Made by a program: the position numbers and the translations under genes
The notes under the pieces: generated by a model
The model's database searches: none
The model's input: the letters and a program-made list of their open reading frames with translations, nothing else
What the model was told of the DNA's origin: nothing
Source: a virus
Length of the DNA: 32,315 nucleotides
IMG/VR virus record: IMGVR_UViG_3300017783_005078
Coordinates: 1 to 32,315 of that record
Reading direction: 5' to 3' (one strand)
Shown here: positions 3,898-25,969 of the stretch, piece after piece
How the letters are laid out: every line of letters begins with the position of its first letter
Position numbering within the stretch: the stretch's first letter is position 1

Positions 3898-4152
3898 TTA
3901 TGAACTAATCTCCCCAGTATTGACGTCTATAGAAACTTTTCCGTATTTGTTGCTGAGCTCTGCATTAAATTCGCTTTCTAAAACGTCGATTTTTTCGAGA
4001 GTAGAGAAGAGCTGTTCTTTTTGTGAAGTAAGAGATTTAAGTTGTATTTCTGCTGCTCCTATATTTGTAAGTATGTCTCTGCGTTTATTAATAAAACTGT
4101 TAAACTTAGTAAGCTCTTCTTGTGTAAGTTTTTTAATTTTTTTATCTGCCAT
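3898..4152 (-). CDS. Small coiled-coil protein of unknown function next to the sheath gene
   Basis: The 84-residue protein begins MADKKIKKLTQEEL and is charged and helical for residues 5-70, with a heptad-like pattern of Leu/Ile (IQLKSLTSQKEQLFSTLEKIDVLE) that suggests a coiled coil. The C-terminus KYGKVSIDVNTGEIS is a short beta-like tail. I recall similar small proteins in marine phages next to virion genes, but know no function. Its place immediately upstream of the sheath gene suggests a virion or assembly role, for instance a chaperone or scaffold. The ATG follows a poly-A stretch (TTAAATAAAA) with no Shine-Dalgarno sequence. Confidence 0.75.
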   Translation of the reverse strand: MADKKIKKLTQEELTKFNSFINKRRDILTNIGAAEIQLKSLTSQKEQLFSTLEKIDVLESEFNAELSNKYGKVSIDVNTGEISS

Positions 4153-4189: not shown

Positions 4190-5371
4190 TTAACTTTCCA
4201 ACTTTAATCTAGTATTACCGTAATGTATAACCTTTATGTCTTTAACTGTTTTAAATGATCTCCACGGGTCTACTACTACTGAGCCATCTGGAAAATCATA
4301 ATCGTGGTGTTTACCCATATGTCCTAAAAGGTATACTGCTTTAATTGGCTGTACTGGGTCATATATTACTTTTTTAGTTGAACCGTAAGATTCACAGTAA
4401 TGGCCTACTAATATAGAAGATGAACCGTCTTTATAATGTACGTCAGGTTTATATGCTTCTCCTAATATTACAATTGGTAAATTAGCTTTGTCTGATTCTA
4501 TAACAAGTCTAGTAGCCATATTTTTAGCTTGCTTCTCTCTTGCTTCCATTATAGCGTCAAATAAATCGTAACCTAATCCTAACTCTTCGGCCATATACCT
4601 TAAAGCTATGTTATCTCTTGGATGGCATCCTCCTCCATCACCCATTCCTGCTTTCATGTAAGTTGGGCCTAATATACGGTAGGTAGATCTCTCTAATGCT
4701 CCAGTGACAACGTCTACATTCATGTTACCCCCTTTTTCTGCAACATCTTGAATCATATTAACTAAAGCTACCTTAGTAGATATAAATGTATTATAAAATA
4801 TTTTTATTGCTTCTGCCTCATCCCAAGTTCCTATCTCATATCTTGTACCTTTTGTAATAAAGGTTTCATAAAACTCTAATAATAGTTTAGCATCTCCTGT
4901 TGTAGACCCATCCTCAGTACCTATTATAATCATTTCAGGGTTAACCATATCCCATTTTACTGTACCCATTGCTATAAGGTAAGGATTGTAAATAAATCTA
5001 CCGTTTGGTATTCTACTTATAAACTCTTTTCTAATAGTACCGGGTAAAACAGTCGATATTAATACGACTAGCTGATCTTTATTAACGTGTTTATTTACTT
5101 CATCTAACACGTCATTAACTATACTATAGTCGAAATCTTTATTGGGTAAATGAGATGTTGGGTACCTACCGTCATAGTCTGGGTGATGCGGTGTAGGTAC
5201 TGCAATAAAAATAAGTTCACGGTTATGACATACGTCTTTAATCGTATATGCCATTTCAAATTTATCTGATGATGTTTCTGTTATGTCGTAACCTATTACT
5301 TCGTGTTTTTCCGCCATTACTTCGGCAGCGTCTTTTCCAAGTTTACCTATTCCTATAAAACCAATTTTCAT
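4190..5371 (-). CDS. UDP-glucose/GDP-mannose dehydrogenase family protein
   Basis: The 393-residue protein has the order of motifs of nucleotide-sugar 6-dehydrogenases, which oxidise a UDP-hexose to a UDP-uronic acid with two NAD. Residues 3-12 are a Rossmann NAD site (IGFIGIGKLG), 57-61 AVPTP, 106-112 STVLPGT, then AIKIFYNTF (Lys190, Asn194) and GDGGGCHPRDNIAL with the catalytic Cys249. The C-terminal Rossmann domain starts at about 299 (VILGEAYKPD); the usual DDxRxSP motif is changed to HYKDGSSS. It is the last gene of the enzyme cassette, separated from the GT-B-like gene by 15 bases, and would supply a uronic-acid donor to the glycosyltransferases encoded nearby. The exact substrate (UDP-glucose, UDP-GlcNAc, GDP-mannose) cannot be read from the sequence. 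Confidence 0.88.
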   Translation of the reverse strand: MKIGFIGIGKLGKDAAEVMAEKHEVIGYDITETSSDKFEMAYTIKDVCHNRELIFIAVPTPHHPDYDGRYPTSHLPNKDFDYSIVNDVLDEVNKHVNKDQLVVLISTVLPGTIRKEFISRIPNGRFIYNPYLIAMGTVKWDMVNPEMIIIGTEDGSTTGDAKLLLEFYETFITKGTRYEIGTWDEAEAIKIFYNTFISTKVALVNMIQDVAEKGGNMNVDVVTGALERSTYRILGPTYMKAGMGDGGGCHPRDNIALRYMAEELGLGYDLFDAIMEAREKQAKNMATRLVIESDKANLPIVILGEAYKPDVHYKDGSSSILVGHYCESYGSTKKVIYDPVQPIKAVYLLGHMGKHHDYDFPDGSVVVDPWRSFKTVKDIKVIHYGNTRLKLES

Positions 5372-5386
5372 AAAACTCTATTAAAT

Positions 5387-6379
5387 TTAATATAAATAGT
5401 TAAGAATGCCAAGGTCTATATTCAGCTTATAAGTAATATTATCATCGATATGCACCTTATTATCGTCTCTTAAAATTTCTTTAGCTTTATCAATATTAAA
5501 ATCAGCAATAGAATGCATACTTTTATCTATCTCCTGCAAGGGTAACTTAGATAAACGTAACAACTCTTTACTTAGTAGTTCAGCTCTACGAATATCGTCT
5601 TTTTCCGAGTCAAAAGTATAATCCACAACATTATCATAAAGTTTAAATCCTAAATTTTGTAAGCCTTTATTGATACCTTTAGCTCCATAAATAATAAATG
5701 GTTTACCAAGCAAGATAGGCTTAAATGTCTTTTCTGTATAAAAAATACATTGTGTAGTAGCTTCAGAAACTAAGTCAAACAAGCTTGTAAAATAGTGCTT
5801 TTCAGGTTTTAGATAGCTATTTCCTTCACTTTGATAATCATCTTTAGCTATTTTAGATTCTTCTTTCCAGTACTTAAATTTATATTCACCAGAATGTTCA
5901 TACTCTTTTGTATTTAAATTCCAAGAATAATTAGTATCATTAAGTAACTTTAACCGGGCAAGTTGATCCATAAGTATACATCTATGTTTATGAGGTCTAT
6001 TTACCTGCATATAAAATATCCTTTCTTTAATTTTATATTGATTATATTTATATTTCAACAGAGGGAAAGTATGATGTAAAAAGAAAGTAGGAAAAAACTT
6101 AACTTTAAAAGGAGATACGTGATTATTAAAATTAAATCTATAACTGTTTTCTGATAGAGAGCCGAGAAGTAAGAAAGCTTCTATTTTATGTTCTTTTATT
6201 ACCGTAACTATTTCTTTAAATTGTTGAGTCTCTATATTAGGGTTAAAATTAAACTCTGTTGTGCAGTCTAATATAAATACTTTAGGTGTTAATCTCTGTA
6301 TAGTATCTATTATAAGATCTTCACTATTCCATTCCCAAACATGAATTACTAGTAATCTATTAGCAGGATTATAAAACAT
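5387..6379 (-). CDS. Putative GT-B-like glycosyltransferase
   Basis: The 330-residue protein has no overall match I can name with certainty. The region at 200-230 (LFDLVSEATTQ then YTEKTFKPILLGKPFIIYG) follows the pattern of GT10 fucosyltransferase and exostosin-type GT-B proteins, where a (S/T)EKhh.shhxGxhPIhhG segment binds the nucleotide sugar. The N-terminal 110 residues look like an alpha/beta domain (LLVIHVWEW, KVFILDCTTEF, AFLLLGSLS), and the middle holds RIFYMQVNRPHKHRCILMDQL, also common in such proteins. It sits in the cassette between an SGNH-like protein and a nucleotide-sugar dehydrogenase, which supports a sugar-transfer role. The acceptor is unknown. Confidence 0.55.
   Translation of the reverse strand: MFYNPANRLLVIHVWEWNSEDLIIDTIQRLTPKVFILDCTTEFNFNPNIETQQFKEIVTVIKEHKIEAFLLLGSLSENSYRFNFNNHVSPFKVKFFPTFFLHHTFPLLKYKYNQYKIKERIFYMQVNRPHKHRCILMDQLARLKLLNDTNYSWNLNTKEYEHSGEYKFKYWKEESKIAKDDYQSEGNSYLKPEKHYFTSLFDLVSEATTQCIFYTEKTFKPILLGKPFIIYGAKGINKGLQNLGFKLYDNVVDYTFDSEKDDIRRAELLSKELLRLSKLPLQEIDKSMHSIADFNIDKAKEILRDDNKVHIDDNITYKLNIDLGILNYLY
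5391..5398 (-). promoter_or_regulatory. Candidate promoter box TATTTATA upstream of the dehydrogenase gene
   Basis: An exact TATTTATA lies on the coding strand 19 bases before the dehydrogenase ATG. It overlaps the last codons of the preceding gene, so the match could partly be coding. If real, it would give the dehydrogenase an extra start of transcription inside the cassette. Confidence 0.33.
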
Positions 6380-6383
6380 TAGC

Positions 6384-7046
6384 TCAAATATTTTTATAAA
6401 TTAATTCAGAGTATAGTTTATGTTGTTCAGTTGTAGGGTGGTCATCGTCACCTTTTTTTCTCATTTCGTTATCTAAACTAAATCTTTCTAAAGATGGATT
6501 TATCCAATATTCTTTAGAAGCATAATGTTTTAATATTTTACAAGATTGGCTAGATAAAAATTCTATAGTTTTTTTTCTAAGTATAGGTAAACTATATCCT
6601 GTAGGTTCTCCTGCAAAATAATCTATCCAAGGTTCAAACATATAAAACATATAAAGTTTAAATTTGTATTTATCTGAAAGTAAATTTAAATGATCTATGT
6701 AATTTACTAATTCTATTGCGTTTCCTTCAACACTAAAGTACTTATTAATATATTCTTTGTTAAAATTTTCATTATTATCTATTTGACCTAAATGTTGATA
6801 TGTGCTTCTTACTTTAATTAAATCATGACGAAGAAGTGAACTCCATTGAATAATAAAAGTATGGTTCGAAAGATCTTTATTTTTATTTGAATTAATATAA
6901 TCAGTAATAGTAATATACGAAAATTTTTGTCCAGAACCAGCTTCTCCTAAATTTTTAAACTCATCAAAATACTTAGATAAGTGATCTGCCCAAGTCTTAT
7001 ACCCATATTGAGTATAGCTGCATCCTGATGTAATAAGTTTTTTCAT
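6384..7046 (-). CDS. SGNH/GDSL-like hydrolase or acyltransferase
   Basis: The 220-residue protein begins MKKLITSGCSYTQYG, matching block I of SGNH hydrolases with Ser10 as the expected nucleophile, although the usual GDS is GCS here. Block II may be GEAGSGQ at 34-40. The C-terminal GDDDHPTTEQHKLYSELI (199-216) matches block V with the Asp/His pair (Asp200, His203). SGNH enzymes cleave or transfer ester groups, often acetyl groups on glycans. It overlaps the oxygenase gene by 4 bases and is one of two SGNH-like proteins in the cassette. A carbohydrate O-acyl esterase or transferase role is inferred from context. Confidence 0.65.
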   Translation of the reverse strand: MKKLITSGCSYTQYGYKTWADHLSKYFDEFKNLGEAGSGQKFSYITITDYINSNKNKDLSNHTFIIQWSSLLRHDLIKVRSTYQHLGQIDNNENFNKEYINKYFSVEGNAIELVNYIDHLNLLSDKYKFKLYMFYMFEPWIDYFAGEPTGYSLPILRKKTIEFLSSQSCKILKHYASKEYWINPSLERFSLDNEMRKKGDDDHPTTEQHKLYSELIYKNI

Positions 7047-7537
7047 CTCGTACCTGTTATTTGCAAAGTATACCTAGGTTGGATTCCAATATTACTAGCT
7101 GCATGCTCTATATCATAACTGTACATTACATAGTCTCCTTTATTCCAGCTATTAAAACTTGTTTTATTATACTCAAAATAATGACCAGGTTTCCAATCTT
7201 CTAAAAAAAGTATAGCCCTATATACTTCATTTTGTTCTTTATTAAATATTCTACAATAAGCTTCAAAATGATCATAATGAGGAGGCATAATATCTAAAGT
7301 ATCCATTTTATAAAAAGTATACCCGCAGTTTTTTAAACCTATAGCGTTACTTATGTCTTTAGTCCATCTAGGCATAGGATTTTTGCTGCTGTATAAGGCC
7401 CCTGTAAAGCTTTTATGATAGTATCCTTTTTCTCTCCATCTATTAACTTCACTTTCTTTGATAGGCTGTTTAGTATAGTCGAAGGTAAAGAACTCATTTC
7501 CTACTAAAGTACGTTTTATGTTATCAACTTTTATCAT
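7043..7537 (-). CDS. 2-oxoglutarate/Fe(II)-dependent oxygenase-like protein
   Basis: The 164-residue protein fits the short double-stranded beta-helix oxygenases frequent in marine phages. The metal triad can be placed as His87 and Asp89 in PPHYDHFE and His145 in DIEHAASN, with Arg155 in QPRYTLQIT as the 2-oxoglutarate carboxylate binder. Strands between them (YRAILFLEDWKPGHYFEY, WNKGDYVMY) follow the prolyl-hydroxylase-type order. The enzyme would hydroxylate a protein side chain or a small molecule. It is joined by ATGA overlaps to the amidinotransferase gene before it and the SGNH-like gene after it, which suggests that it acts in the same modification route. The substrate is not known. 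Confidence 0.78.
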   Translation of the reverse strand: MIKVDNIKRTLVGNEFFTFDYTKQPIKESEVNRWREKGYYHKSFTGALYSSKNPMPRWTKDISNAIGLKNCGYTFYKMDTLDIMPPHYDHFEAYCRIFNKEQNEVYRAILFLEDWKPGHYFEYNKTSFNSWNKGDYVMYSYDIEHAASNIGIQPRYTLQITGTR

Positions 7538-8544
7538 AATCTTATCATATCAGCAGTACAACAATGGAAAGAACCTCCTAACGTCCTAGAATGTCTTATT
7601 TTTAAGTCTAACGCTTCAATATTATATTTTTTTAACTCTTTGATTAATTCTTTCTGTCTATTATCAACTATTACTGTATTTTCATCTAGAGAAATAAGAT
7701 TTATACCCACCCATTCAGACGCTCTCAATACTCCTTTATACCCAATATCTATCATCGGAGGAGAATATATAATATCCCATCCTTTGAATAGTTCTGGCAT
7801 ATTTTTTTCGCTAACTCTTGCCGGATTAACAAGTGCTAGACCGTCTCTAAGAATAGCAATCGTAGAATCAATATGAGAATACGAATACATATTTTCTAAG
7901 TAATGTACCTTATATTTATCTCCTAGCAAATTCTTTAACCAAGTATATCCTTTATAGTTTCCTGTGTTAGAATTAAGATAGAGAATATCATCATTATGTC
8001 TGAGTATATTAGCTGCATCAAATACAGGTTCTACTTCAGTTAATGTAAGTTTATCTAAATCGTCTCTTTGATATGAATCGTCTGTTAATCTAGGTTTAGG
8101 AGCACATATCCATTTAGCTCCTTTATCCATATAATCAATAAACAGCTCTCTATAAGCATCAGTTTCAAACTGTCTAGACCTTAACGTCATAGGTGATTCT
8201 ATAATGGTATCTCCAATGACTGTCATAGTATCTCTTGGGCAGAATGTATAGTATTGATCTGTTTTCCAATAACCGTTAGAGACAGTTTTTTTAGTATCTA
8301 ATATATTTGGTCTATGTACTATAGCTCCAAAGTCTTTTAGAGCTTCTGCTAATAAATCTAGGTCTTCAATAGACTCTTCATATACTTGAGGATCAAATAA
8401 ACCTCTTTCTGAGGAAGGAATAGTGTCTTTGTCTGCATAATTAATTGCATGAAGATCAAAACCGTGATGAGGTTGGTTTGCATTATCTACTCTTCCGACT
8501 ATTACCTCTTTTAAAGTACTGTATTCGTTCTGTATACTAACCAT
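7534..8544 (-). CDS. Amidinotransferase (glycine/inosamine amidinotransferase family)
   Basis: The 336-residue protein is a member of the amidinotransferase family, which moves the amidino group of arginine onto an amine to make a guanidino group. It has the expected length and the full set of sites: EYSTLKEVIVGR at the start, FCPRDTMTVIGDTIIE (101-116), Asp176 in VFDAANIL, His224 in YSHIDST and Cys328 in TLGGSFHCC, corresponding to the Asp-His-Cys active site of human AGAT and StrB1. The bacterial enzymes StrB1 and StrB2 act on aminocyclitols in streptomycin synthesis. A DegT-type aminotransferase lies just upstream, so an amine made there could be guanidinylated here. The start at 8544 gives a 34-base overlap with the SGNH gene but is needed for the conserved N-terminus. 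Confidence 0.88.
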   Translation of the reverse strand: MVSIQNEYSTLKEVIVGRVDNANQPHHGFDLHAINYADKDTIPSSERGLFDPQVYEESIEDLDLLAEALKDFGAIVHRPNILDTKKTVSNGYWKTDQYYTFCPRDTMTVIGDTIIESPMTLRSRQFETDAYRELFIDYMDKGAKWICAPKPRLTDDSYQRDDLDKLTLTEVEPVFDAANILRHNDDILYLNSNTGNYKGYTWLKNLLGDKYKVHYLENMYSYSHIDSTIAILRDGLALVNPARVSEKNMPELFKGWDIIYSPPMIDIGYKGVLRASEWVGINLISLDENTVIVDNRQKELIKELKKYNIEALDLKIRHSRTLGGSFHCCTADMIRL

Positions 8545-9224
8545 TGTTGAAATTTGCTATTATTATAAATTAAATTTGATATTTTTTCATGACCTTTTAC
8601 GTTAGGGTGAGTAACATTACCTTCAAAGTATTCACCTACAAAGCAACTTGTCTCTAGACCGTCAACGTTAAGGCTGCTAGGTACTATACCTAAATCATAT
8701 CCTCCTAAAAATGTAGTTAAACTAGTATCTATCAAAAAGTTGGATTTATCTATCTTGCCGTTAAATTTAAAGTTATTATCTATACTACCGTAATTAGTGA
8801 AGAATAAAAAACTAACTCCTATTTTAGTTAAATATTCTTGTATACAAAATAAATTTAAAAGTTGAAAATAAGGATGCCAATTTTTATGTTCAACTATTAC
8901 TTCAGTATAGTAATCAAACTGTTTTTGTATAAATTTATCAGGGTGTTTTGATGTTGAAGAAAATAAAGATATAAATACTCCATCTTCTGTTTCACCTATA
9001 AATCTAATATCCGGTGGTATACATACTAATACAAAGTCATCCTTACTTATATCATATGTAAGTACTTGACTACATATAACTGAAAAGGAATTGCCTTTTT
9101 TGCCAAAGTTACTGTAAGGTCCTTTTGCTTTTTCACTTAATAATTTAGTATAGCATTCCTTTACAGGACTTTTTAATTCATCTCCATAGGTCCAACTGTC
9201 CCCAAACGATATAATTTTACTCAT
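8511..9224 (-). CDS. SGNH-like hydrolase/acyltransferase with altered block V
   Basis: The 237-residue protein begins MSKIISFGDSWTYGDEL, a clear SGNH block I with nucleophile Ser10. GKKGNS at 41-46 resembles the block with the oxyanion-hole Gly/Asn. The C-terminal GNVTHPNVKGHEKISNLI (202-219) matches block V, but at the expected Asp of DxxH there is Asn203, while His206 is kept. Thus it may be an atypical enzyme or use a Ser-His dyad. It shares only the fold-level motifs with the other SGNH-like protein in the cassette, so the two probably serve different ester groups. It overlaps the aminotransferase gene by 8 bases. Confidence 0.72.
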   Translation of the reverse strand: MSKIISFGDSWTYGDELKSPVKECYTKLLSEKAKGPYSNFGKKGNSFSVICSQVLTYDISKDDFVLVCIPPDIRFIGETEDGVFISLFSSTSKHPDKFIQKQFDYYTEVIVEHKNWHPYFQLLNLFCIQEYLTKIGVSFLFFTNYGSIDNNFKFNGKIDKSNFLIDTSLTTFLGGYDLGIVPSSLNVDGLETSCFVGEYFEGNVTHPNVKGHEKISNLIYNNSKFQQWLVYRTNTVL

Positions 9225-9822
9225 TGAATATTTTCATTTTAGTTAATTCTGGGTAGTCTTTATAGGACCTTATTTTAGGTTTTCTACTTATAGCGTCTTG
9301 CAATTTACTTACTCCTATTTCAGCTGTTTCCGGAGTCATATAGTAATGGTATCCTATAGTCTCTATATCTTGTTCAGCCCAAGGTTTGTCAAACGTTCTA
9401 CCATCATATGTCATTTTACGTAGTTGTTCAGCTGCTTCTTTATTATCTGTTAATATCATTCCTCCTCTACCTAAGTTTAAATGCTTTTTGAATTGAAACG
9501 AAAGTACCATAAAAGTTCCAGATATATAGCTATTCTGCTCCCAAAGGACGGCTGCATCTATTATGTTGTCTGTGATGTAGTAGTATTTACTCCATTCTTG
9601 TGACGTCCATACTCTTTTTATGTCTAATTTATCTGACAGCATAGGTATGGACAGGTAGGTATGTTTAGGTACTATTATTTCTTTAGTATTTAATAACCTA
9701 AGGCATAATTCTAGTCCATGAGTACAACAGTCTACTGCTACTCCATACGGTGCATTAAACCATTCTGCAACTTTATTTTCAAATAATGTTATCCCTTGAA
9801 ATGAACTGCAATTTATATTCAT
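9217..9822 (-). CDS. Half-length DegT/DnrJ/EryC1-type aminotransferase-like protein
   Basis: The 201-residue protein resembles the large domain of DegT-type PLP aminotransferases, which make amino sugars and aminocyclitols. Signs are LFENKVAEWFNAPYGVAVDCCTHGLEL (13-39), IIDAAVLWEQN (Asp89, expected to contact the PLP ring nitrogen), the Lys site in SFQFKKHLNLGRGGMILTD (Lys112 or Lys113), and YMTPETAEIGVSKLQ (161-175). Family members are usually 360-400 residues; this one stops where the C-terminal small domain would begin, so it is either a minimal form or a functional fragment. The first ATG gives a 44-base overlap with the upstream gene, but it is needed to keep the family's N-terminal helix. 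It lies near the amidinotransferase gene. Confidence 0.75.
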   Translation of the reverse strand: MNINCSSFQGITLFENKVAEWFNAPYGVAVDCCTHGLELCLRLLNTKEIIVPKHTYLSIPMLSDKLDIKRVWTSQEWSKYYYITDNIIDAAVLWEQNSYISGTFMVLSFQFKKHLNLGRGGMILTDNKEAAEQLRKMTYDGRTFDKPWAEQDIETIGYHYYMTPETAEIGVSKLQDAISRKPKIRSYKDYPELTKMKIFNE

Positions 9823-10786
9823 TTTTATTATGATTTGCGTAATTTAATTTATTATATTCATTATGTACTCTTCCTAAATTCATTTCACTTTTCGCAAAAG
9901 TTAGAGGGTGTCCACCGATATATCTAGCCATATAGCTCCAAGAAGATGGTGGGCTATGAATTATTGTTTCAGTATAGCTCAAACTAAAAAAATCTATTAA
10001 GTCATACCCCATATCTTTTAACTGTAGTCTAGGATCTAGAAATTTTGCGTCGTTAAGTATTTTTTTATTTTCTTTAACAATATCTTTGCAGGTTTTTATC
10101 CTACCGGGGTATTTAGTTCTGTAGTATTCGATAGCATTCTCATCAACATCTATTCCTATAAAAAACTTTGCATTTTTATCTTTTTTAATTAGGTCATCTA
10201 TTATATCAAAATAAATTTGATCTCTTATAAAAGGGTAGTTTTTATCACATTTAGTACATAGTTTATAGTACCTCATGTAAGGTTTAGGTATGGATAATTT
10301 ATCATAATGGTCTAAATATACCCCGTTTCCTCTTCTTATATGAATACCAGTACGGCCCTGTACTGTGGCTTTTATTTTTTCGTGAATAATTTTATTTTTT
10401 ATTTTCACAGAACTAAAAGTATCTGTTTTTGGATCAAAAAAAGCTAGAACCAGATCTAGAGTATTTCCGTAATTAAAAGCATTAGTGTACGATAGTTGAT
10501 TATTTAATTTTATTTTATCATTTTTTATCCATTCTTCAACTTCTATATCTACAATAGGAGTAGTTTTTTTATTTATTTCATATAGAGTAGTATATTCAGT
10601 ATTTGGAAAATCTATTAAAGTAAGTTCGGGAAACTCTTCAGGTAGTACTTTTATTATATGGTTGTTACCCATACTTTTATTTAGTATACAAGCTGCCAGC
10701 CAGGTAAACAATCGGTTTCCCCAACCAGAATCTTTATTCTTCACGTCATCCCAGGGGTCTCTTAAAAATATTGTAGGTCTAGACAT
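9779..10786 (-). CDS. Fucosyltransferase-like protein (GT11/O-FucT-type)
   Basis: The 335-residue protein has the two patterns that mark GDP-fucose-using transferases of the GT11, GT23 and GT65 group: an N-terminal GWGNRLFTWLAACIL (21-35, like GxGNQxFxxxxA) and a central GIHIRRGNGVYLD (147-159, like HxRRGDY, the GDP-fucose-binding motif). A C-terminal DFFSLSYTETIIHSPPSSWSYMA matches the family's third motif with Ser-rich end. It therefore probably transfers fucose or a related deoxyhexose in the cytoplasm. It overlaps the upstream radical SAM gene by 8 bases. No GDP-fucose synthesis genes are in the window, so the donor must come from the host or from elsewhere in the phage. Confidence 0.7.
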   Translation of the reverse strand: MSRPTIFLRDPWDDVKNKDSGWGNRLFTWLAACILNKSMGNNHIIKVLPEEFPELTLIDFPNTEYTTLYEINKKTTPIVDIEVEEWIKNDKIKLNNQLSYTNAFNYGNTLDLVLAFFDPKTDTFSSVKIKNKIIHEKIKATVQGRTGIHIRRGNGVYLDHYDKLSIPKPYMRYYKLCTKCDKNYPFIRDQIYFDIIDDLIKKDKNAKFFIGIDVDENAIEYYRTKYPGRIKTCKDIVKENKKILNDAKFLDPRLQLKDMGYDLIDFFSLSYTETIIHSPPSSWSYMARYIGGHPLTFAKSEMNLGRVHNEYNKLNYANHNKNEYKLQFISRDNII

Positions 10787-16193: not shown

Positions 16194-16777
16194 TATATCT
16201 TATGTACAAAATTTAAATTACCTGTTGTGTCTACATACTTATCGAATATTCTTTCCTCAAAAAAATGATCACTTAAAATCTTTCCATCCTGAGATAAAGT
16301 AAATCTAAGAAGATCAAAGTCAGTATAATTTAAGTTAAAATTATTTTTTGGAAAGTTACCTGCTCCAATTATTATATGTGGGGATTCATTAATACCAAAT
16401 ACTTTATTTTCCATAGATTCGTTTACTACAACTTCGTTATTAATAAATATTTTAAAATAAAGTTTAGGTTTATGATCAAACTTTACTACTGTATGTTTAT
16501 CAACAGGTATAGGAAAAGGTAATCTATAATACCTTGGTTTATCTTCATAAGTTATTGTGATAACAGTTTCTTCTGGGTATAAATCTAAACCTGTATACCT
16601 AGGAACTAAAGTAAATATAGTTTTTTGGAGTCTAGAATTATCCCTTAATATAAAATCAAAAGAAAACTCAAACGAATGTTCTCCGGTTAATAAGAGATTA
16701 GAAGGATTAGAAGGAAAAGTATCACAAATACTGCTAGGCCAAAATAACCAAGGTTCTCCTTTATTTATTTTCAGCAT
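16193..16777 (-). CDS. Free-standing LamG/concanavalin-like jelly-roll protein
   Basis: The 194-residue protein is almost entirely beta strand and lacks enzyme motifs. Strands such as SFEFSFDFILRD, TIFTLVPRYTGLDLY, ETVITITYED, HTVVKFDHKPKLYFKIFINNEVV, and the final LLRFTLSQDGKILSD are in the order of LamG/concanavalin-type lectin domains, where an IFTL...GL.L segment and an '(Y/F)hNG' type strand recur. Similar domains seem to be inserted in the two GT7 genes just upstream. It lies between the two CHHP-type radical SAM genes, overlapping one by 17 bases and the other by 1. A carbohydrate-binding or scaffold role is inferred; no signal peptide is present. Confidence 0.55.
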   Translation of the reverse strand: MLKINKGEPWLFWPSSICDTFPSNPSNLLLTGEHSFEFSFDFILRDNSRLQKTIFTLVPRYTGLDLYPEETVITITYEDKPRYYRLPFPIPVDKHTVVKFDHKPKLYFKIFINNEVVVNESMENKVFGINESPHIIIGAGNFPKNNFNLNYTDFDLLRFTLSQDGKILSDHFFEERIFDKYVDTTGNLNFVHKI

Positions 16778-18134
16778 ACATATTAGTTAACTGGGGAAAT
16801 GTATCAGAAAAACTAGTACCTCTTCTCTTATCATACTCCTCAACAAATTTAAAAAACTCTTTCCTACTTTTTTCTTGATCATAAATTACACTATTACCTA
16901 TTGCATAATCATATGTTCGTTTAATTTTCTGTATTTCTACGTTTGAAAATCCATAGTTATTATTAGTAAATTCTTTTATACCGTAGTATAAAGCTTTCTC
17001 AGCAGATTTTAGTATTAACTCTTTATGTTCTTTATCTAATATTCTCACAGACATAAAAGAAGGCCACCTTAAGTAAGATGTATCCAACTGTATAGCTGAT
17101 ACCCAGTATCTTTTGCCGTTGGCATATTTCTTTTTCAATTTAAAAACCCTATCAATAACTTTATCATAAGTAAAAACCGATAGTGCGTTAAAAGTAGCCA
17201 TAACATTTATAGTTACTTTTGGTAATTTAGTAAGTATTTTATTTACATTAGACCAAAATTTATCAGCTTGTAATCCATATCTTACATATTCAGCTTGTTT
17301 TTCGTCTCCCTCAATAGAAGTAAATACTATTAACTCTCTTACTTTATTATTATTACATAAGTCTGTTGCTATCTCTATAAATCTATCAATAAGTTTATCT
17401 GGTACTCCTAAATTTGTATTGATTGCTAAAGATATATTACTATTCTCTTTATAATTTTCTTGTATATATTCTAATACTTTAAAAGTATCTTTAGATAATA
17501 AAGGTTCGCCGCCAGTAATTCTGAAAGTATGAAGATCTTTAAACATATCTGGCCACCATTTCCAAAAAGCTTCTATATAAGGATTGTGTTCTGAATGTTT
17601 ATAAGGAAATTCATTTTTTTTCTTTAAAAATTCTATATCGTTATAATTATTTACTTGTTTATACCCTCCATGATTCTCTATTTCTTCTACCCATTTAGAT
17701 GAATACTGAGGACCACAATAAGCACAAGCAAAATTACAAGTATTTGAAAAAGATACTTCTACATATTTAGGATTAAAGTTATCTTCCCAGTCTGAATTAA
17801 CTATATTATCGAATTGTGATATTGACCAAGGTTCAGATGATTTAAAAACTCTATCTGAATAAGAAGTAGAATTATCTTCTACATTCCAGCAGTAATTACA
17901 TTCAGATGGTTTTCTATTATTCATCATCTGTCTGCGTTTCATTTTTTTATGCTTAGTATTATGTAAAGCAGTAGGATTACTCTTTAATTCTTCTAATGGA
18001 ATTTTATGAGGAGAAGGATGGTGACAGGAATGAGTCATACCGGTACCAAGATGCATAGTAACTTGGGTCCATTTAGCTAAACAGAACCCTTTTCCAACTG
18101 AATCTAATTTATTCTTTACTTCTAGATTGGTCAT
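16761..18134 (-). CDS. Radical SAM protein with N-terminal twitch-like domain (copy 1, CHHP type)
   Basis: This 457-residue protein is the first radical SAM gene in transcription order. It has Cys18 (FCLAKW), Cys37 in SCHHPSPHKIPL, Cys79/Cys82 (ECNYCW), the cluster motif CNFACAYC (Cys133, Cys137, Cys140) and GGEP at 208-211. EAFWKWWPDMFKDLHTFRITGGEP is nearly superimposable on the same region of copy 2 (EAFWKWWEAE...LRELRVTGGEP), and both end with a YDKRRG(T/K) segment. The CHHP change removes one of the two cysteines seen in the CC type, so any auxiliary iron-sulfur cluster would be bound differently. It is coupled to the GT7 gene by an ATGA overlap. Confidence 0.9.
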   Translation of the reverse strand: MTNLEVKNKLDSVGKGFCLAKWTQVTMHLGTGMTHSCHHPSPHKIPLEELKSNPTALHNTKHKKMKRRQMMNNRKPSECNYCWNVEDNSTSYSDRVFKSSEPWSISQFDNIVNSDWEDNFNPKYVEVSFSNTCNFACAYCGPQYSSKWVEEIENHGGYKQVNNYNDIEFLKKKNEFPYKHSEHNPYIEAFWKWWPDMFKDLHTFRITGGEPLLSKDTFKVLEYIQENYKENSNISLAINTNLGVPDKLIDRFIEIATDLCNNNKVRELIVFTSIEGDEKQAEYVRYGLQADKFWSNVNKILTKLPKVTINVMATFNALSVFTYDKVIDRVFKLKKKYANGKRYWVSAIQLDTSYLRWPSFMSVRILDKEHKELILKSAEKALYYGIKEFTNNNYGFSNVEIQKIKRTYDYAIGNSVIYDQEKSRKEFFKFVEEYDKRRGTSFSDTFPQLTNMYAENK

Positions 18135-19492
18135 AACTTTACATTAAGCATTTTTGCCCAAGGAGTTAGCTTTTCTTCACTAACTAAATCATATTTTAAG
18201 GTATTTATACCTTCATTTTTATAATTAGACTTACCTTGTTGCATTTCTAATACATATCTACGTTCATTTTTAGCTGTTGTAGGTCCTTTTGCCCATTTAC
18301 CGTTAACTAAACCTTCATCTTTATGAGGTAGACATCTAAATTTACCATCTCTACGGTGAGGAATGATAGCATTATATACTACCATATCTTCTTTAACGTT
18401 AATAATATTTTCTCTATAGTCATTTTTACTTTCAGTGAGCTTCCAAATAGTTTCCCCTTGGCCTTTTATTATAACTTCACCTATTCCTCCTTTAAATCTC
18501 TTTCCTGGGTAGTTTTCTCCAAAAGAAGGAGTGTATCCTAAGTATATGTCACCATTTTTGTACTTACTACTTAACCTACCGTTGTATATTAATGGAGATT
18601 CAGTACCGTGTCCTAACTCAGCATCTGCTTCTACTCCATTTAGAAAGTAATTAACTTTCCTTTCACGTGGATTAAACTTAGCTGTAATCCAAGTCCATAA
18701 GTTATCATATCTTTTTATCCACATGTAGTTATGTTGGTGAAAAGTATTAAAAAATTGAAGAGTAAATGCTCTTGAATTATTAAAAGATAAGCCGAAATCT
18801 TCCCCTGGTATCCTAAAAATAGGATATTCATAAAATTTAGCTTCATTATCACCTATTAAATGTATAGGAGCTTTATGCTCTTGATGCTCTGCTTTAGCTA
18901 AAATAGATATTTCAAATTCTCTTTGAAAAAATCCTTTAGGTAAAGTTTCTTTAGGGACTATTATCTTAGAATCTTCACCATTAAAGTATAAATGACTAGA
19001 GAACGTATCCATACTTGTAGTGGTAACGTCGAGCATACCTTCTAAATAACATCTCCAAAATAAATCATCATCTTCCATACCCCAGTCCCAATAGTTATTA
19101 GAGTATCCATTAGTTTTTTCTACTTGTTCTTTTGAAAATATCACTGCTCCACCAAAATATTCAAAGTATTTAAGTTTATACTCTGATTGAGATATCCTTA
19201 CTGCTATATGTTGTGGATTTTCTTCTGGGTAAGAATAATCGCATGAATTATCTTCCGGTATCATGTCTATATCATGCCAAACTATGTAATCACATCCTTC
19301 TTCAAAGGCATGCTTAGCTGCTATATTTTTCATAGCACCTCTATTAAAGAGTTTATCATCTACTTGATGGGCAAAGTACATTTGAAAGTCTATTCCTGCT
19401 TCTTTTAAGAATTTTCCTACTTTTGGGATAAATTCATTAAGATGTAATTCTCTATTTCTATAGGGTACGCAAACTCCTAACTTATGACTCAT
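18131..19492 (-). CDS. GT7 (beta-1,4-galactosyltransferase-type) enzyme with inserted LamG-like domain, copy B
   Basis: The 453-residue protein has all N-terminal GT7 motifs: VPYRNR (9-14), FNRGAMKN (49-56), HDIDMIP (73-79; Asp74 and Asp76 form the metal DxD), YFGGA (112-116) and NGYSNNYWDWGMEDDD (128-143). The part that in animal enzymes ends with a metal-binding His and the dGL.sL.Y strand is found only near the end: RDGKFRCLPH (381-390, His390) and EGINTLKYDLVS (427-438). Between them, about 165-375, is a beta-rich LamG-like segment (FRIPGEDFGLSF, VNYFLNGVEA, DIYLGY, FKGGIGEVII). Thus the LamG domain seems to interrupt the catalytic domain. The enzyme should transfer a UDP-sugar, galactose-like by family. 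It is coupled by ATGA overlaps on both sides. Confidence 0.8.
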   Translation of the reverse strand: MSHKLGVCVPYRNRELHLNEFIPKVGKFLKEAGIDFQMYFAHQVDDKLFNRGAMKNIAAKHAFEEGCDYIVWHDIDMIPEDNSCDYSYPEENPQHIAVRISQSEYKLKYFEYFGGAVIFSKEQVEKTNGYSNNYWDWGMEDDDLFWRCYLEGMLDVTTTSMDTFSSHLYFNGEDSKIIVPKETLPKGFFQREFEISILAKAEHQEHKAPIHLIGDNEAKFYEYPIFRIPGEDFGLSFNNSRAFTLQFFNTFHQHNYMWIKRYDNLWTWITAKFNPRERKVNYFLNGVEADAELGHGTESPLIYNGRLSSKYKNGDIYLGYTPSFGENYPGKRFKGGIGEVIIKGQGETIWKLTESKNDYRENIINVKEDMVVYNAIIPHRRDGKFRCLPHKDEGLVNGKWAKGPTTAKNERRYVLEMQQGKSNYKNEGINTLKYDLVSEEKLTPWAKMLNVKL

Positions 19493-20916
19493 ATTCTGAC
19501 AATTAAATGATGATAACCTTTATTGAAATACTCTTCTTCAGCATATCTACAAGAAGTAATACCGTTTTTTTGATATTCGGACTTTAAAGTATAATATCTG
19601 TCTAAATATCGTAATTGATTTTTTCTACTAGTCCAGCTAACCCAGTATCCGTCTTTATATCCTGACTCTTCATGAGGAAGAACTTTAAATTTACCCTTTT
19701 TTCTATAAGGAATAGGTTTAGTTATATTGGTACTTACCTGAACTTGTTTTTGTTCACAGTTAAATACTCTTCCGTTGTTTTCTCCTTTTAAATCTAACAA
19801 TTCTGTACCGTCTACAAACTTCATATCGTAATAAGAAGTAAGATAGTCATTAGATTTAAAATTAAATAAACTATTAGTAAGATTATTACTTATTTTACTA
19901 CATTCTTTATCAGATAATGCTTCAGAATAAGTAGCAAAAGTATCGATAGTACCTTTAAACCAATTTTTTTTCATTTCTCTTTCAGGATCACCTACTCCAA
20001 GGTAAATGTATTTCTGTTTTCTTATATTTAAGAGTTTATCAAAGGTATTTTCGCCTACTTTTTGTCCATTAATATATAACTTTACTACAGGAGGTATATA
20101 ATCACTGGAATTGTGGTTTGCTCCTTTAGTATCTACTGTTATAATTGCATTATATCTACCTGATTGTAATCCTTTCGAAGGTATAGATATAGAATTTAAA
20201 TTATATTTCCAGAATTGAAAAGTCAAATCAAAAAATGAATTAACTGTTAGGGTAGTATCATAACCAGGTATACTAAAAATTGAGTTTTCATCAGTAACTA
20301 CTTCGTTAGTAAACATAATTTCATCATATCCAAAAGAAACGAATATAGAAAAGTTTCTTAAAATAGAAAGTTTATTGGGAATAGCTACAAAACTATCCTT
20401 TCCATTAAACTCTAATGCGATAGCCTCCCTTCCTTTCTGTATTAGTTGTTTACCATCCAGTTCTATATGATTTTCTAAGCATCTTAAAAGTAAATCGTCA
20501 TCTTCAAACCCCCAACCAAAATATTTATTTGAATATCCGTTTATTTGTCTGAATATATTAGAAGGAAATATGGTAACTCCTCCAAAATATTCATCAAAAA
20601 GTGTTCTTGATACACCTTCGGGTAAGTCTAGTTCAGTAATTAAATGAGTAGGTTTAGAAGTATAAGAATAATCAGCATCGATAGGTAACATATCAATGTC
20701 ATGAAATACTACATAATTACATTTTAACTCTTCTGCTTTTAAAAAACCTATATTTAGTAGTTTACCTCTATTAAAATTATTTTTTTCGGTCTGTTCTACT
20801 ATAATTATTTCAAAAATTATATCTCTATCTTCAAGATAGCGTCTTATATGGTTTAAAAAATGCTTAAGCTGATTAGGACGATTTCTATAAGGTACTATTA
20901 CGCCTAATTTATGCAT
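19489..20916 (-). CDS. GT7 (beta-1,4-galactosyltransferase-type) enzyme with inserted LamG-like domain, copy A
   Basis: The 475-residue protein is a paralogue of its neighbour. GT7 motifs are VPYRNR (8-13), FNRGKLLNIGF (48-58), HDIDMLP (72-78), YFGGV (110-114) and NGYSNKYFGWGFEDDD (126-141). The final catalytic parts, GKFKVLPH (408-415, His415) and KNGITSCRYAEEEY (450-463), lie about 265 residues later. The intervening stretch carries a LamG-like domain with FSIPGYDTTLTV, VVKLYINGQKVG, YIYLGVG and a KGTIDTFATYSEALSDKECSKI end typical of that fold. At the position of bovine Met344, which helps bind Mn, a Val (or Cys in the other copy) seems to be present. No transmembrane anchor is seen, unlike animal enzymes. 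Confidence 0.82.
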   Translation of the reverse strand: MHKLGVIVPYRNRPNQLKHFLNHIRRYLEDRDIIFEIIIVEQTEKNNFNRGKLLNIGFLKAEELKCNYVVFHDIDMLPIDADYSYTSKPTHLITELDLPEGVSRTLFDEYFGGVTIFPSNIFRQINGYSNKYFGWGFEDDDLLLRCLENHIELDGKQLIQKGREAIALEFNGKDSFVAIPNKLSILRNFSIFVSFGYDEIMFTNEVVTDENSIFSIPGYDTTLTVNSFFDLTFQFWKYNLNSISIPSKGLQSGRYNAIITVDTKGANHNSSDYIPPVVKLYINGQKVGENTFDKLLNIRKQKYIYLGVGDPEREMKKNWFKGTIDTFATYSEALSDKECSKISNNLTNSLFNFKSNDYLTSYYDMKFVDGTELLDLKGENNGRVFNCEQKQVQVSTNITKPIPYRKKGKFKVLPHEESGYKDGYWVSWTSRKNQLRYLDRYYTLKSEYQKNGITSCRYAEEEYFNKGYHHLIVRI

Positions 20917-21124
20917 CTTCTTCTGGGTCTTCTATATCTTTACCTATTTCAGGTGTACGTTTTAAAAATTCAGCTAAATAATGCTGAGTTCTTTCACTCC
21001 ACTCTTCTTTATCTATTTCTTCAAACCATAATACGAAAGCATCTAGGCTTCTACCTATTTTTTCTAGTGCTTTTACCTTACGTTCCTCTAAAAGTTGCTT
21101 TTCTAAGTCTAATTTTGAACTCAT
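20909..21124 (-). CDS. Small acidic helical protein of unknown function
   Basis: The 71-residue protein is predicted helical and strongly charged: LDLEKQLLEERKVKALEKIG at the start, a Trp-containing middle (AFVLWFEEIDKEEWSERTQHYLAEFL), and an acidic end (EIGKDIEDPEEDA). It has no Cys and no leader-like core, so it does not look like a standard radical SAM peptide substrate. It is coupled to the genes on both sides (8-base and ATGA overlaps), inside the glycosyltransferase run. Comparable small proteins occur in marine phages as far as I recall, with no assigned role. It could be an adaptor for a transferase. Confidence 0.7.
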   Translation of the reverse strand: MSSKLDLEKQLLEERKVKALEKIGRSLDAFVLWFEEIDKEEWSERTQHYLAEFLKRTPEIGKDIEDPEEDA

Positions 21125-21960
21125 ATTGTAACTATTTTATCTCTTAATTTGTTCCAGTTGCTATAATCGTTATAGTTAATATACGATAATTCCTTTAATT
21201 CTTCAACTAAAAACTCTGGGTTATTGATATCTATTTTCCAACCTGAGTTCTTAATAGCATTGTACATAGTATCATATTCTTTTGAATAAGAATACTCTTT
21301 TTTAACATCAGCTACCTTTTTTAATCTTTCTATACATGTAGAATCCCACTTAAAATGATGTACTTGAGTAAAACACTCTTCTACAGGCATTCGAAGTGGA
21401 TGTTCTTTACCCCAGCTTGTCCTATTATTACCTAGATCTACATAATGTTGACCTGAAGTAACATCTATATTACCTTTCATTAAAGTAACCTTATTAGGAC
21501 AGGCACCTGACATTGGATATCGAAAGAAACCAGCTAGTGGGAATGCTTTATGTATATCTGTCTCTCTATCTACTTTAGGAAATATACCATCTTTACCTAT
21601 GCGATCTATAAACCCACCGGTAACAAAGGAATAACCACGTTTATCACAGTGTTTTATAATGTTATCTACATTGTCTGGGTATACCTGTAGTTCATCGTCG
21701 TCAGATACTATCCACCAATCGTCCGGTTTGGTTATTTTAATAGAATTATAAATTTCTGTTACTCTTCTCCAGTTGTATTTATTTTCTGTAAATACCATGT
21801 AGGGTTCAATACCTAACTCCTCTATTTCCTGTATTATAGTATCATTATCTGATTGCTTGTAGACTGCGATATATACTTTATCTACTATATTTTCGTAATG
21901 TTTTAACATATGAGGTAAGATATGTGTATTCTCACCTACTACTGTAACTAAATTAAGCAT
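21121..21960 (-). CDS. GT2/GT92-like glycosyltransferase
   Basis: The 279-residue protein starts with a GT-A nucleotide-binding fold (LNLVTVVGENTHILPHMLKHYENIVDKVYIAVY) and has the metal site DDDE at 87-90 in WWIVSDDDELQVYP. The FVTGGFIDRIGKDG segment and the later VHHFKWD (His near the C-terminus) are seen in GT92/GT2-like proteins that act on polysaccharide. It is soluble, with no membrane segment. It lies between the methyltransferase (8-base overlap) and the small acidic protein (ATGA overlap). Donor and acceptor are unknown. Confidence 0.75.
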   Translation of the reverse strand: MLNLVTVVGENTHILPHMLKHYENIVDKVYIAVYKQSDNDTIIQEIEELGIEPYMVFTENKYNWRRVTEIYNSIKITKPDDWWIVSDDDELQVYPDNVDNIIKHCDKRGYSFVTGGFIDRIGKDGIFPKVDRETDIHKAFPLAGFFRYPMSGACPNKVTLMKGNIDVTSGQHYVDLGNNRTSWGKEHPLRMPVEECFTQVHHFKWDSTCIERLKKVADVKKEYSYSKEYDTMYNAIKNSGWKIDINNPEFLVEELKELSYINYNDYSNWNKLRDKIVTI

Positions 21961-22690
21961 GTTGTACTATAGTTAACCCAGTAGAACTAGGTTTTGTTTT
22001 TAAAATACCGTTATTAAACAAATTTAATACGTTCCATTTAGGATCTTTTAATAATTCCTTCATAAACTTCGCTGGGCCATCAGTAAATTCATGAAAATGG
22101 TCTTGATCTTTTATATCTTTAGTGACTATGTAGTCTTTTGAGTAAGATTTATCAGTATCGTGAATAGATACTATACCTTTTGGTGATAATAACTTACTAT
22201 ATAGTTCAAAATCTTGTTTTACGTCTTTATAAGAATGTCCAGCATCGATATGTAAGTAATCTACCTTAATATCTTCTTTAACAAAGAAGTTATAATAAGC
22301 TTTTTCAGTAGTATCGTTTATGATACGCGGACAAAAGGTCTCTCTAAAGAAAGAATCTTTATTTAACCAATCTACTTCACCGCCTATTTCATTAGCTGCG
22401 TCAACTATAAAGGTGACTCCTATGTCTCCCCAGCTCATACCGTTATCTCCTTCAAATATACCAGCTTCATGTAAGTCTTGTCTTGCTCTAGTCATTATCC
22501 TTGGTATAAATCCTCCTCCAGAGCCTAAACATACACATACTTTAGCTCTCATATACTGTATAATAGAGTAGATTAGTAAACCGTCACCTAAATCGTCGTC
22601 TGTCGCACCATGAGTCCATCTATATGTAACAGGTTTATCTTTATTGTTAGTAATATTTTCTTTTATGTACCTTTTATCTAGTATACCCAT
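21953..22690 (-). CDS. Class I SAM-dependent methyltransferase
   Basis: The 245-residue protein has the SAM-binding loop VCVCLGSGGGFIPRIM (motif I), then VDYLHIDAGHSYKDVKQDFELYSKLLSPKGIVSIHDTD, the signature of the methyltransferase-24 type found in sugar and cephalosporin-hydroxylase-like clusters. These enzymes often methylate a hydroxyl group on a sugar; metal-dependent members use the Asp-x-x-His seen here (IDAGHSY, HDTD). It overlaps both neighbours. O-methylation of the glycan made by this cassette is the likeliest role. Confidence 0.78.
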   Translation of the reverse strand: MGILDKRYIKENITNNKDKPVTYRWTHGATDDDLGDGLLIYSIIQYMRAKVCVCLGSGGGFIPRIMTRARQDLHEAGIFEGDNGMSWGDIGVTFIVDAANEIGGEVDWLNKDSFFRETFCPRIINDTTEKAYYNFFVKEDIKVDYLHIDAGHSYKDVKQDFELYSKLLSPKGIVSIHDTDKSYSKDYIVTKDIKDQDHFHEFTDGPAKFMKELLKDPKWNVLNLFNNGILKTKPSSTGLTIVQHA

Positions 22691-23556
22691 TACCTTTTAT
22701 GTAGTTTACTTAAAGATTGCATGTTTACTTTACTATAATTAGAAATTATCCTTCTTAAGGTATTTATTTCATTAATATAGTTAAATCCTTCCGAAGAATC
22801 TAATATTTTATTCTTTTCCATCCAATAATGTCTGAAATATAGGTTAGATTCTTTACTATCTATTAAACCTTTAGTACCTTTTAACCATTTTCTGTCGCTA
22901 CTATGCCATATATCAGTGGTTAAGGGTATATATTCTATATTATGCAGGTCTAAAAGATGTTTTAGTAACAATTGTTCAGCATAAACTAAATACTTAGAGT
23001 TAGGAGCATTTAACTTAGTTAATTCTTCCATTAGTTTTAATGAAGTATTAGCATAAGATCTAGCGAATGCAGGATTAGGGTAGTAATTAAAACAGCAATT
23101 AACTGATTTATGGTTAGGTCGGTTCAATATATGGTTTGTTCTTCTTACATATTCATCTAAAGCATGAGGATAGTAGTTTTCCCCATTTTCTTCGTGTCCT
23201 ACTATAACTTTATCTTTTAGATACGGTTCAAAACTTTTATATACTAAGAAATCATGATCTAATACTACTGAAGGGGTTTTTATACTAGAAAGTATGTTTA
23301 ATTTAGAACTAGCCCAGAAGATATCTTTATTAATACTTTCATCGAATGTACATCTATATACATTATCCCATAATTCTATAGCATTTATGTCTGATAAAAA
23401 TGAATAAGTACTCTTATCACAGTATAGGGTAGTACTTGTATTAGAGTTATGCTTTTTCCACTGTATTACAGATCCTAATAGTAAAGATACTTTTAGTTCA
23501 GTATAAAAGCTAGAGTGTTTTTTGATATTTTCTAATATCCATATAACATTTACCAT
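22690..23556 (-). CDS. Putative GT-A-like glycosyltransferase, first gene of the cassette
   Basis: The 288-residue protein looks like a GT-A glycosyltransferase: an N-terminal WKKHNSNTSTTLYCDK strand-turn region, then a hydrophobic strand ending in DHD (Asp100, Asp102) in PSVVLDHDFLVYKSFE, a DxD-like metal site. NCCFNYYPNPAFARSYANTS (154-173) and AEQLLLKHLLD (near 200) resemble the acceptor part of capsular-polysaccharide type transferases. No family name can be given with certainty. It starts 15 bases after the last fibre gene and has 1-base overlap with the methyltransferase gene, so it opens the cassette. Confidence 0.6.
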   Translation of the reverse strand: MVNVIWILENIKKHSSFYTELKVSLLLGSVIQWKKHNSNTSTTLYCDKSTYSFLSDINAIELWDNVYRCTFDESINKDIFWASSKLNILSSIKTPSVVLDHDFLVYKSFEPYLKDKVIVGHEENGENYYPHALDEYVRRTNHILNRPNHKSVNCCFNYYPNPAFARSYANTSLKLMEELTKLNAPNSKYLVYAEQLLLKHLLDLHNIEYIPLTTDIWHSSDRKWLKGTKGLIDSKESNLYFRHYWMEKNKILDSSEGFNYINEINTLRRIISNYSKVNMQSLSKLHKR

Positions 23557-25966: not shown

Positions 25967-25969
25967 ATC

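Follow-up and report, generated by a model that had tools for sequence, protein, structure and literature searches.

Why does a T4-like phage carry a dense block of genes for sugar and radical chemistry between its tail-fibre and tail-sheath genes, and on what would their products act? We addressed this question for the IMG/VR virus record IMGVR_UViG_3300017783_005078, whose full 32,315 bases are referred to here as the window, and which carries a T4-like structural module on the minus strand in the order end of gp23, gp13-like neck gene, fibre-type genes, cassette, sheath, tube and T4 gp26-like baseplate protein gene. The cassette (4190-23556) consists of 20 adjacent minus-strand open reading frames (ORFs) with overlaps of up to 44 nucleotides (nt) and gaps no longer than 16 nt, and is located between the fibre-type genes at 24785-28620 and the sheath gene at 2004-3782. 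The answer that we favour, and to which we give about an even chance, is that of a polymorphic locus for glycan synthesis and tailoring in the slot between neck/fibre genes and sheath, which would be expressed late by read-through and would build a glycan on a virion protein.

An earlier reading of the letters alone (the sequence-only reading) had described the block as tightly packed, on one strand and flanked by tail-fibre and sheath genes, which is borne out by PHROG matches of the flanking genes (tail fibre to 1e-35, sheath 5.6e-71). Its count of 18 genes was too low, and it probably missed an ORF of 71 amino acids (aa) at 20909-21124 and a LamG-like ORF at 16193-16777. Since one relative is colinear at 85% nucleotide identity over 18 kb, a chance assembly of the arrangement can be excluded. 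The cassette encodes six glycosyltransferases, a methyltransferase, a half-length DegT aminotransferase, a StrB1-like amidinotransferase and a nucleotide-sugar dehydrogenase, as well as five N_Twi radical S-adenosylmethionine (radical-SAM) proteins, a LamG protein, a 2-oxoglutarate (2OG) oxygenase, two SGNH-like proteins and one small ORF. Families were assigned from Pfam, NCBIfam, PDB and fold comparison; the calls are weak for the GT2-type glycosyltransferase and the oxygenase, which score below the Pfam cut-offs, and for the SGNH, GT10-like and LamG-only proteins, which were recognized by motif or by eye. Seven glycosyltransferases had been claimed, six of which lie in the region (two GT7, one GT2-type, one DUF6734, one whose predicted fold resembles NodZ/FUT8 and one GT10-like for which there is a motif only) and the seventh outside it (GT8, 706-1407). 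We could also recover the methyltransferase (PF13578), the amidinotransferase (StrB1, PDB 1bwd, E=2.8e-89), the nucleotide-sugar dehydrogenase (PF00984/PF03721) and the aminotransferase, which belongs to the DegT family by PF01041, yet is only 201 aa long. All five predicted radical-SAM enzymes score above the curated cut-off of NF033640 (N_Twi_rSAM; 269.8-341.4 bits vs 170 bits) and contain CX3CX2C (5/5) together with an N-terminal cysteine cluster. The oxygenase retains an HxD motif and a distal His, but its PF05118 match (E=0.003) remains below the Pfam cut-off, and the two SGNH proteins show the motif by eye without a Pfam match. The expected catalytic motifs are intact across the cassette enzymes.

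Relatives were collected by scans seeded with the sheath and the amidinotransferase, complemented by longer stretches of the same records, and annotated with the window's proteins; their contigs are metagenomic, so that the cassette boundaries and the relative G009 could be affected by assembly. Ten distinct phages, window included, share the order h170-h232-DUF6734-MT24-GT2-h71-GT7a-GT7b-rSAM1 as far as each contig reaches, and in most of them LamG and rSAM2 come next. This core comes after the fibre genes in the cassette-bearing relatives, and the comparison that the sequence-only reading had proposed is thus consistent with a position beside fibre genes. The core genes and the two genes following them are (E values of matches in brackets):

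22690-23556, minus strand: DUF6734 glycosyltransferase-like protein, core (PF20508, 1.2e-6)
21953-22690, minus strand: Methyltransf_24 methyltransferase, MT24, core (PF13578, 1.9e-10)
21121-21960, minus strand: GT2-type glycosyltransferase, core (PF13704, 6.9e-5, below cut-off; DDD motif)
20909-21124, minus strand: h71, conserved small ORF of 71 aa, core, preceded by GT2 in 14/14 loci where found
19489-20916, minus strand: GT7a, GT7 galactosyltransferase-like protein with LamG domain, core (PF13733, 3e-21; PF13385, 1.6e-6), with DxD and WGFEDDD (GT7 WG.EDDD motif)
18131-19492, minus strand: GT7b, GT7 galactosyltransferase-like protein with a related C-terminal region, core (PF02709, 1e-18)
16761-18134, minus strand: rSAM1, N_Twi radical SAM, core (NF033640, 2e-99; CX3CX2C)
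16193-16777, minus strand: LamG-like standalone protein (by eye; no Pfam family above cut-off)
14568-16193, minus strand: rSAM2, N_Twi radical SAM (NF033640, 4e-94)

A scan of viral contigs with GT7a gave matches only in two close relatives, and GT7b had no match in the annotated phage collection. The LamG-like gene is kept between rSAM1 and rSAM2 in relatives. LamG-type domains occur in two forms, fused to a glycosyltransferase (19489-20916) and alone between two radical-SAM genes (16193-16777), and are possibly substrate-docking modules.

Beyond the core, the content is mosaic and includes radical-SAM genes 3-5, FucT, DegT-AmidT-2OG, GT10-like and SGNH genes or unrelated sugar genes, such as a mannose-6-phosphate isomerase/nucleotidyltransferase protein in the relative L002. 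The dehydrogenase gene, where present, lies just before the boundary formed by h84 and the sheath, and in some cases one or two more genes come after it. In the window, the variable part and its 3' boundary read:

13222-14571, minus strand: rSAM3, N_Twi radical SAM (NF033640, 1e-91)
12008-13249, minus strand: rSAM4, N_Twi radical SAM (NF033640, 8e-102)
10779-12011, minus strand: rSAM5, N_Twi radical SAM (NF033640, 4e-80)
9779-10786, minus strand: FucT, fucosyltransferase-like GT-B protein with HxRRG motif (AlphaFold pLDDT 80.8; best PDB match of the predicted fold NodZ, 2e-7, also FUT8/POFUT)
9217-9822, minus strand: mini-DegT, half-length DegT/StrS aminotransferase (PF01041, 1.5e-18)
8511-9224, minus strand: SGNH-like protein 1, GDS motif (motif only; no Pfam match)
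7534-8544, minus strand: AmidT, StrB1-like inosamine-phosphate/glycine amidinotransferase (PDB 1bwd, 2.8e-89)
7043-7537, minus strand: 2OG-Fe(II) Asp/Asn-hydroxylase-like oxygenase (PF05118, 0.003, below cut-off; HxD and distal His)
6384-7046, minus strand: SGNH-like protein 2, GCS...DHP (motif only)
5387-6379, minus strand: GT10-like glycosyltransferase (motif by eye), of a diverse family recurring in the relatives' variable parts
4190-5371, minus strand: UDP-sugar 6-dehydrogenase-type enzyme (PF00984, 8e-18; PDB UGDH, 8e-21)
3898-4152, minus strand: h84, conserved small protein at the slot's 3' boundary (relatives' comparison)
2004-3782, minus strand: tail sheath (PHROG sheath, 5.6e-71), with its own TATTTATA motif at 3813

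The mini-DegT protein carries a candidate lysine motif for pyridoxal phosphate, SFQFKK at residue 108, which aligns with DegT enzymes; the C-terminal small domain of the full-length enzymes (about 360-390 aa) is missing, and all short phage homologues examined have 195-214 aa. One of these lies in the glycan cluster of the Flavobacterium phage vB_FspM_immuto (immuto), and half-length DegT genes are located at L129:15863-16450, L130:16736-17380 and L131:14998-15588. The protein spans phages of unrelated lineages, with 63% identity to a 642-kb uncultured phage and 49% to its 195-aa counterpart in Synechococcus phage S-SCSM2R. AmidT shows full-length StrB1/AGAT homology with intact Asp/His/Cys motifs (FDAAN, SHIDST, GG.FHC) and is predicted to transfer an amidine group from arginine to an amine.

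Of 48 sheath loci whose upstream sequence spans 3 kb or more, 20 gave profile matches to cassette-type genes, in some cases weak ones, and of the remaining loci several reach neck or fibre genes without a match of this kind. G013 and L044 are 99.2% identical in nucleotides over a stretch that starts shortly ahead of the dehydrogenase gene and continues across sheath and tube; upstream of that point BLASTN found no match between them, and L044 holds a different radical-SAM set. G009 and G013 are 99.4% and 98.0% identical on either side of the slot, and G009 is without fibres and cassette; where G013 has both, it keeps 488 bp of h170 that contain an in-frame stop (L046:9123-9609), and the 122-kb record of G009 contains no copy of the G013 fibre gene. 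This state possibly reflects a deletion or an assembly collapse, the latter because the fibres are missing too, and its use as a clean knockout was therefore rejected. Between the window and L086, identity is 98.2% over rSAM4-DegT vs 83% in the sheath region, i.e. the backbone, and we therefore conclude that cassette segments were recently exchanged horizontally. Since relatives carry other cassette versions or none, the locus behaves as a swappable 'serotype' locus. The ratio of nonsynonymous to synonymous differences (pN/pS) is mostly 0.04-0.40 for the cassette genes and 0.16 for the sheath; SGNH2 reaches 0.50 in a divergent pair with saturated synonymous sites. The cassette genes are hence maintained by purifying selection and are not decaying.

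To which transcription unit does the cassette belong? Scans for sigma-70 promoters gave results at or below shuffled expectation and were discarded for a comparative motif. The motif TATTTATA, found by comparison among relatives and counted where it lies no more than 60 nt ahead of a gene whose upstream gap is 35 nt or longer, precedes 53/122 gapped genes vs 2.0 expected, namely tube (16/16), sheath (15/16), gp26-like (11/13), gp13 (6/8) and dehydrogenase genes (5/8). It precedes none of h170, h232, DUF6734, MT24, GT2, GT7a/b, rSAM1-5, FucT, DegT and AmidT. The window itself has strong sites before gp13, sheath, tube and gp26-like genes, a weaker one before the dehydrogenase, and one isolated match inside the LamG gene. 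The elements at the two putative starts are (PWM, position weight matrix):

31807-31832, minus strand: intrinsic terminator, 11-bp stem and T run, after gp23 and directly upstream of the gp13 motif
31790-31797, minus strand: late-promoter-like TATTTATA, 24 nt before gp13 (PWM 18.6 bits)
30631-31773, minus strand: gp13-like neck protein (PHROG 211 head-tail adaptor, 3e-15; syntenic in immuto)
5391-5398, minus strand: TATTTATA upstream of the dehydrogenase (PWM 11.1 bits)

The only strong terminator of the window (31832-31807) thus lies between gp23 and gp13, upstream of the gp13 gene, in line with the earlier statement that no terminator separates fibres and cassette. Because the motif stands before the genes for neck protein, sheath, tube and dehydrogenase and before none of the core cassette genes, the pattern suggests that transcription of the cassette continues from the neck/fibre unit. 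The gp13 motif is the probable start of the neck-fibre-cassette transcription unit, and the simplest reading of the pattern suggests a single long unit from gp13 through the fibres into the cassette with re-initiation at the dehydrogenase; the previously proposed late expression together with virion genes agrees with this motif pattern. In the virion block of immuto, 10/12 occurrences lie 12-60 nt before an ORF, and the few sites elsewhere include one 30 nt before the ORF preceding a separate glycan cluster (49172-59988) and another 21 nt ahead of the gene that precedes the endolysin gene.

On the 5' side, the cassette adjoins the following genes, of which the fibre gene at 24785-25966 matches PHROG tail-fibre/baseplate families to 1e-35 and the other fibre-type genes were assigned by synteny:

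28012-28620, 26562-27974, 25970-26248 and 24785-25966, minus strand: fibre-type structural genes, with a small ORF at 26362-26553
24272-24784, minus strand: h170, conserved protein before h232 (relatives' comparison)
23572-24270, minus strand: h232, Ser/Thr-rich beta protein with InlB-repeat-like domain (PF18998, E=4e-4, below cut-off), candidate acceptor

The h232 gene is followed by the DUF6734 glycosyltransferase gene in 12/12 loci, some of which overlap within a single phage or come from phages that are nearly identical, and is missing from the cassette-less relatives immuto, L024, L046 and L017. As a constant 5' neighbour, h232 is a candidate to which the earlier guess of fibres or capsid as acceptor might be narrowed. 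Late-type expression together with a constant structural-like neighbour makes direct glycosylation of a virion protein the best-supported candidate target.

We take gene content, the division into core and variable part, recombination, purifying selection and the pattern of the promoter motif as shown, and infer timing, acceptor, reaction order and chemistry as follows. Late in infection, transcripts begun in the neck/fibre unit would run on into the cassette, and a further start of late type would lie in front of the dehydrogenase gene. The cytosolic core glycosyltransferases DUF6734, GT2, GT7a and GT7b, joined by the methyltransferase and radical-SAM enzymes 1 and 2, would assemble the inner glycan straight onto a freshly synthesized protein of the virion, for which h232 or one of the adjacent fibre proteins is the likeliest candidate. 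Outer sugars would then be added and tailored by the variable part: the dehydrogenase may supply uronic acid, mini-DegT an amine that the StrB1-like amidinotransferase would turn into a guanidino group, the oxygenase would hydroxylate, a fucose-like sugar would be added, and radical-SAM enzymes 3-5 would make carbon-centred edits. This order, in which a DegT enzyme would introduce the amine and a StrB1-like enzyme then the amidine, has its parallel in the assembly of streptidine. A swap of the variable part would change the glycan type of the phage. The most far-reaching version, which we put forward tentatively and hold somewhat less probable than virion glycosylation as such, is a true serotype locus in a lytic lineage, virion-directed, with a fixed core tied to h232 and a swapped outer part installing guanidino-, hydroxyl- or radical-SAM-edited sugars, so that near-identical phages would differ in their particle glycan.

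Several observations weigh against glycosylation of a virion protein. The motif TATTTATA is missing before gp23 in four relatives, and for this reason we only infer that it is a late promoter. L014 has a DUF6734/radical-SAM cassette, albeit a divergent one, after h170 without h232, so that h232 as an obligatory cassette partner was rejected. The AlphaFold model of h232 is poor (pLDDT 52.8; its viral fold matches were set aside and not used as evidence), and h232 is a putative virion protein by position, composition and a weak InlB-repeat match. Moreover, similar enzyme sets lie outside the virion block in immuto (49172-59988), whose slot spans only about 2.4 kb including a lysozyme, and in Synechococcus phage S-SCSM2R, and because of this position alone cannot identify the target. 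A literature search found no virion proteomics of immuto.

The strongest competitor, to which we assign a clearly smaller but real share of probability, is remodelling of the host surface, in which the enzymes would work on precursors of host lipopolysaccharide (LPS) or capsule on the cytosolic side and rely on the flippase and polymerase of the host, so that receptors would be masked against superinfection or re-adsorption of progeny. Glycosyltransferases of the pelagimyophage host-recognition cluster (PMC7029224) and LPS-type clusters of cyanophages (PMC2984593) have been read in this way, the enzyme types fit O-unit synthesis, and even late expression could shield progeny from binding to debris. 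However, the window cassette proteins lack long hydrophobic stretches of the kind found in membrane proteins, and the longest relatives gave no match to a priming transferase (PF02397) or a flippase (PF01943). From the lack of membrane, priming and flippase components we conclude that the cassette enzymes look cytosolic, and an autonomous O-antigen pathway was rejected. The promoters being late-type and not early, and the constant structural-like neighbour h232, also argue against the host surface as target.

Far less probable, though worth weighing, is that the radical-SAM enzymes modify side chains of virion proteins in the manner of maturases of ribosomally synthesized and post-translationally modified peptides (RiPPs), with sugars added to the new groups. 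All five are N_Twi_rSAM proteins with sub-threshold similarity to peptide-maturing SPASM enzymes, and the oxygenase weakly matches PF05118, a family that includes peptidyl hydroxylases. Yet no RiPP-like precursor or leader was seen, the DegT-AmidT pair follows aminosugar/aminocyclitol logic, and the radical-SAM set varies together with the sugar genes, which suggests a shared glycan substrate.

Hypermodification of DNA with sugar or guanidino groups, which the sequence-only reading had listed as an alternative, is unlikely. Phage pathways for DNA modification do use glycosyltransferases, oxygenases, pyridoxal phosphate enzymes and radical-SAM enzymes. It is disfavoured because a thymidylate-synthase-family hydroxymethylase (PF00303) was not found in the two longest cassette-bearing contigs, G001 and G002, whose records may be incomplete, and because the nearest isolate, immuto, encodes a 7-deazaguanine DNA modification set (QueC, QueD, QueE, FolE, QueF, DpdA; NC_055915 18607-37015, L133) separate from its glycan genes; late expression together with virion genes also speaks against it. 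Neutral cargo ('stuffer DNA') in a hotspot of variable size, one possibility raised for cyanophage LPS genes (PMC3037559), was rejected on purifying selection, since pN/pS is sheath-like in almost every cassette gene, the enzymes keep their catalytic motifs and core order is conserved, and it is the least credible of these explanations.

Outside the cassette, the GT8-family gene at 706-1407 (PF01501, 2e-9) lies between the tube and gp26-like genes and is absent from that place in the closest relatives G008, L002, L003 and L086; some relatives hold another ORF there, which points to a second small insertion spot. Our literature search found no study naming N_Twi_rSAM. Cellular-filed homologues of rSAM2 occur in metagenome-assembled genomes (MAGs). 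Bdellovibrionota-type MAGs (L099, L101, L102, L106) have 10-26 N_Twi_rSAM matches each, frequently as tandem arrays, and one array adjoins integrase and conjugation genes; no informative sugar-gene neighbours were found at these arrays. L103, L104 and L105, filed as Pelagibacter, Rickettsiales and Betaproteobacteria MAGs, share a radical-SAM array order, the array of L103 comes after a fibre-type (Peptidase_G2) gene, and all three are probably misbinned T4-like phages. The cellular-filed homologues give little information on function.

How does the locus compare with known systems? By its sheath, the window is nearest to immuto (Immutovirus; 66.6% identity over 97% of the protein) among isolates vs only 29-39% identity to cyano- and pelagiphages, so that it does not come from a cyanophage or pelagiphage, and a marine, Flavobacteriia-type host is probable. 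In cyanomyoviruses, a hyperplastic region lies between g15 and g18 (Millard 2009, as summarized in the 2010 review PMC2984593), a position which that review called unique to cyanophages, and the pelagimyophage host-recognition cluster holds glycosyltransferases, a UDP-glucose dehydrogenase and radical-SAM cassettes (PMC7029224). The window cassette occupies the corresponding T4-like slot between neck/fibre genes and sheath, is likewise hypervariable between related phages and, as in pelagimyophages, combines fibres with these enzyme classes. It differs in its clade, nearest to Immutovirus, in the fixed h232-core with a swappable remainder, in its five N_Twi radical-SAMs, mini-DegT and amidinotransferase, and in being without photosynthesis or carbon-metabolism genes.

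Campylobacter phages CP220 and CPt10 have an interchangeable radical-SAM/amidinotransferase module (Timms 2010, PMC2853527), which also unites five radical-SAM proteins and one StrB1/AGAT-type amidinotransferase, has sugar-transferase-like genes alongside, is swapped between close phages and in CP220 lies between baseplate and fibre genes. Their radical-SAM proteins are shorter and have no N_Twi profile match (L127/L128), which places them outside the homologous subfamily, and we found no GT7, LamG, UDP-glucose dehydrogenase or mini-DegT matches in the module. The module is a functional parallel and not a case of shared ancestry, except for the amidinotransferase family. Genes 299-310 of Synechococcus phage S-SCSM2R encode a mini-DegT, a 2OG-oxygenase and a StrB1-like amidinotransferase (49%, 26% and 42.5% identical to those of the window) together with glycosyltransferases, but this set contains one radical-SAM gene and lies near psbA/psbD, outside the virion block. 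Bacterial O-antigen and capsule loci resemble the cassette in enzyme repertoire and serotype-like switching; the window differs by its phage late-gene setting and by the lack of a detectable flippase or priming transferase (PF01943, PF02397).

As far as the tools show, new features are the fixed core tied to h232, cassette switching among phages that are nearly identical, a late-type motif common to them, a half-length DegT that has been conserved, and the extension to an Immutovirus-like clade. If the glycan is on the virion, phages would own antigenic or serotype variation encoded beside their fibres, with a bearing on adsorption, host glycan-binding defences and phage detection, for which the near-isogenic G013, L044 and G009 are natural contrasts. 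The set of mini-DegT, amidinotransferase and oxygenase recurs in flavophage-like and cyanophage lineages, and the amidinotransferase recurs with radical-SAMs in Campylobacter phages; these recurring enzyme sets offer an entry point to the role of phage radical-SAM arrays, a puzzle noted since 2010.

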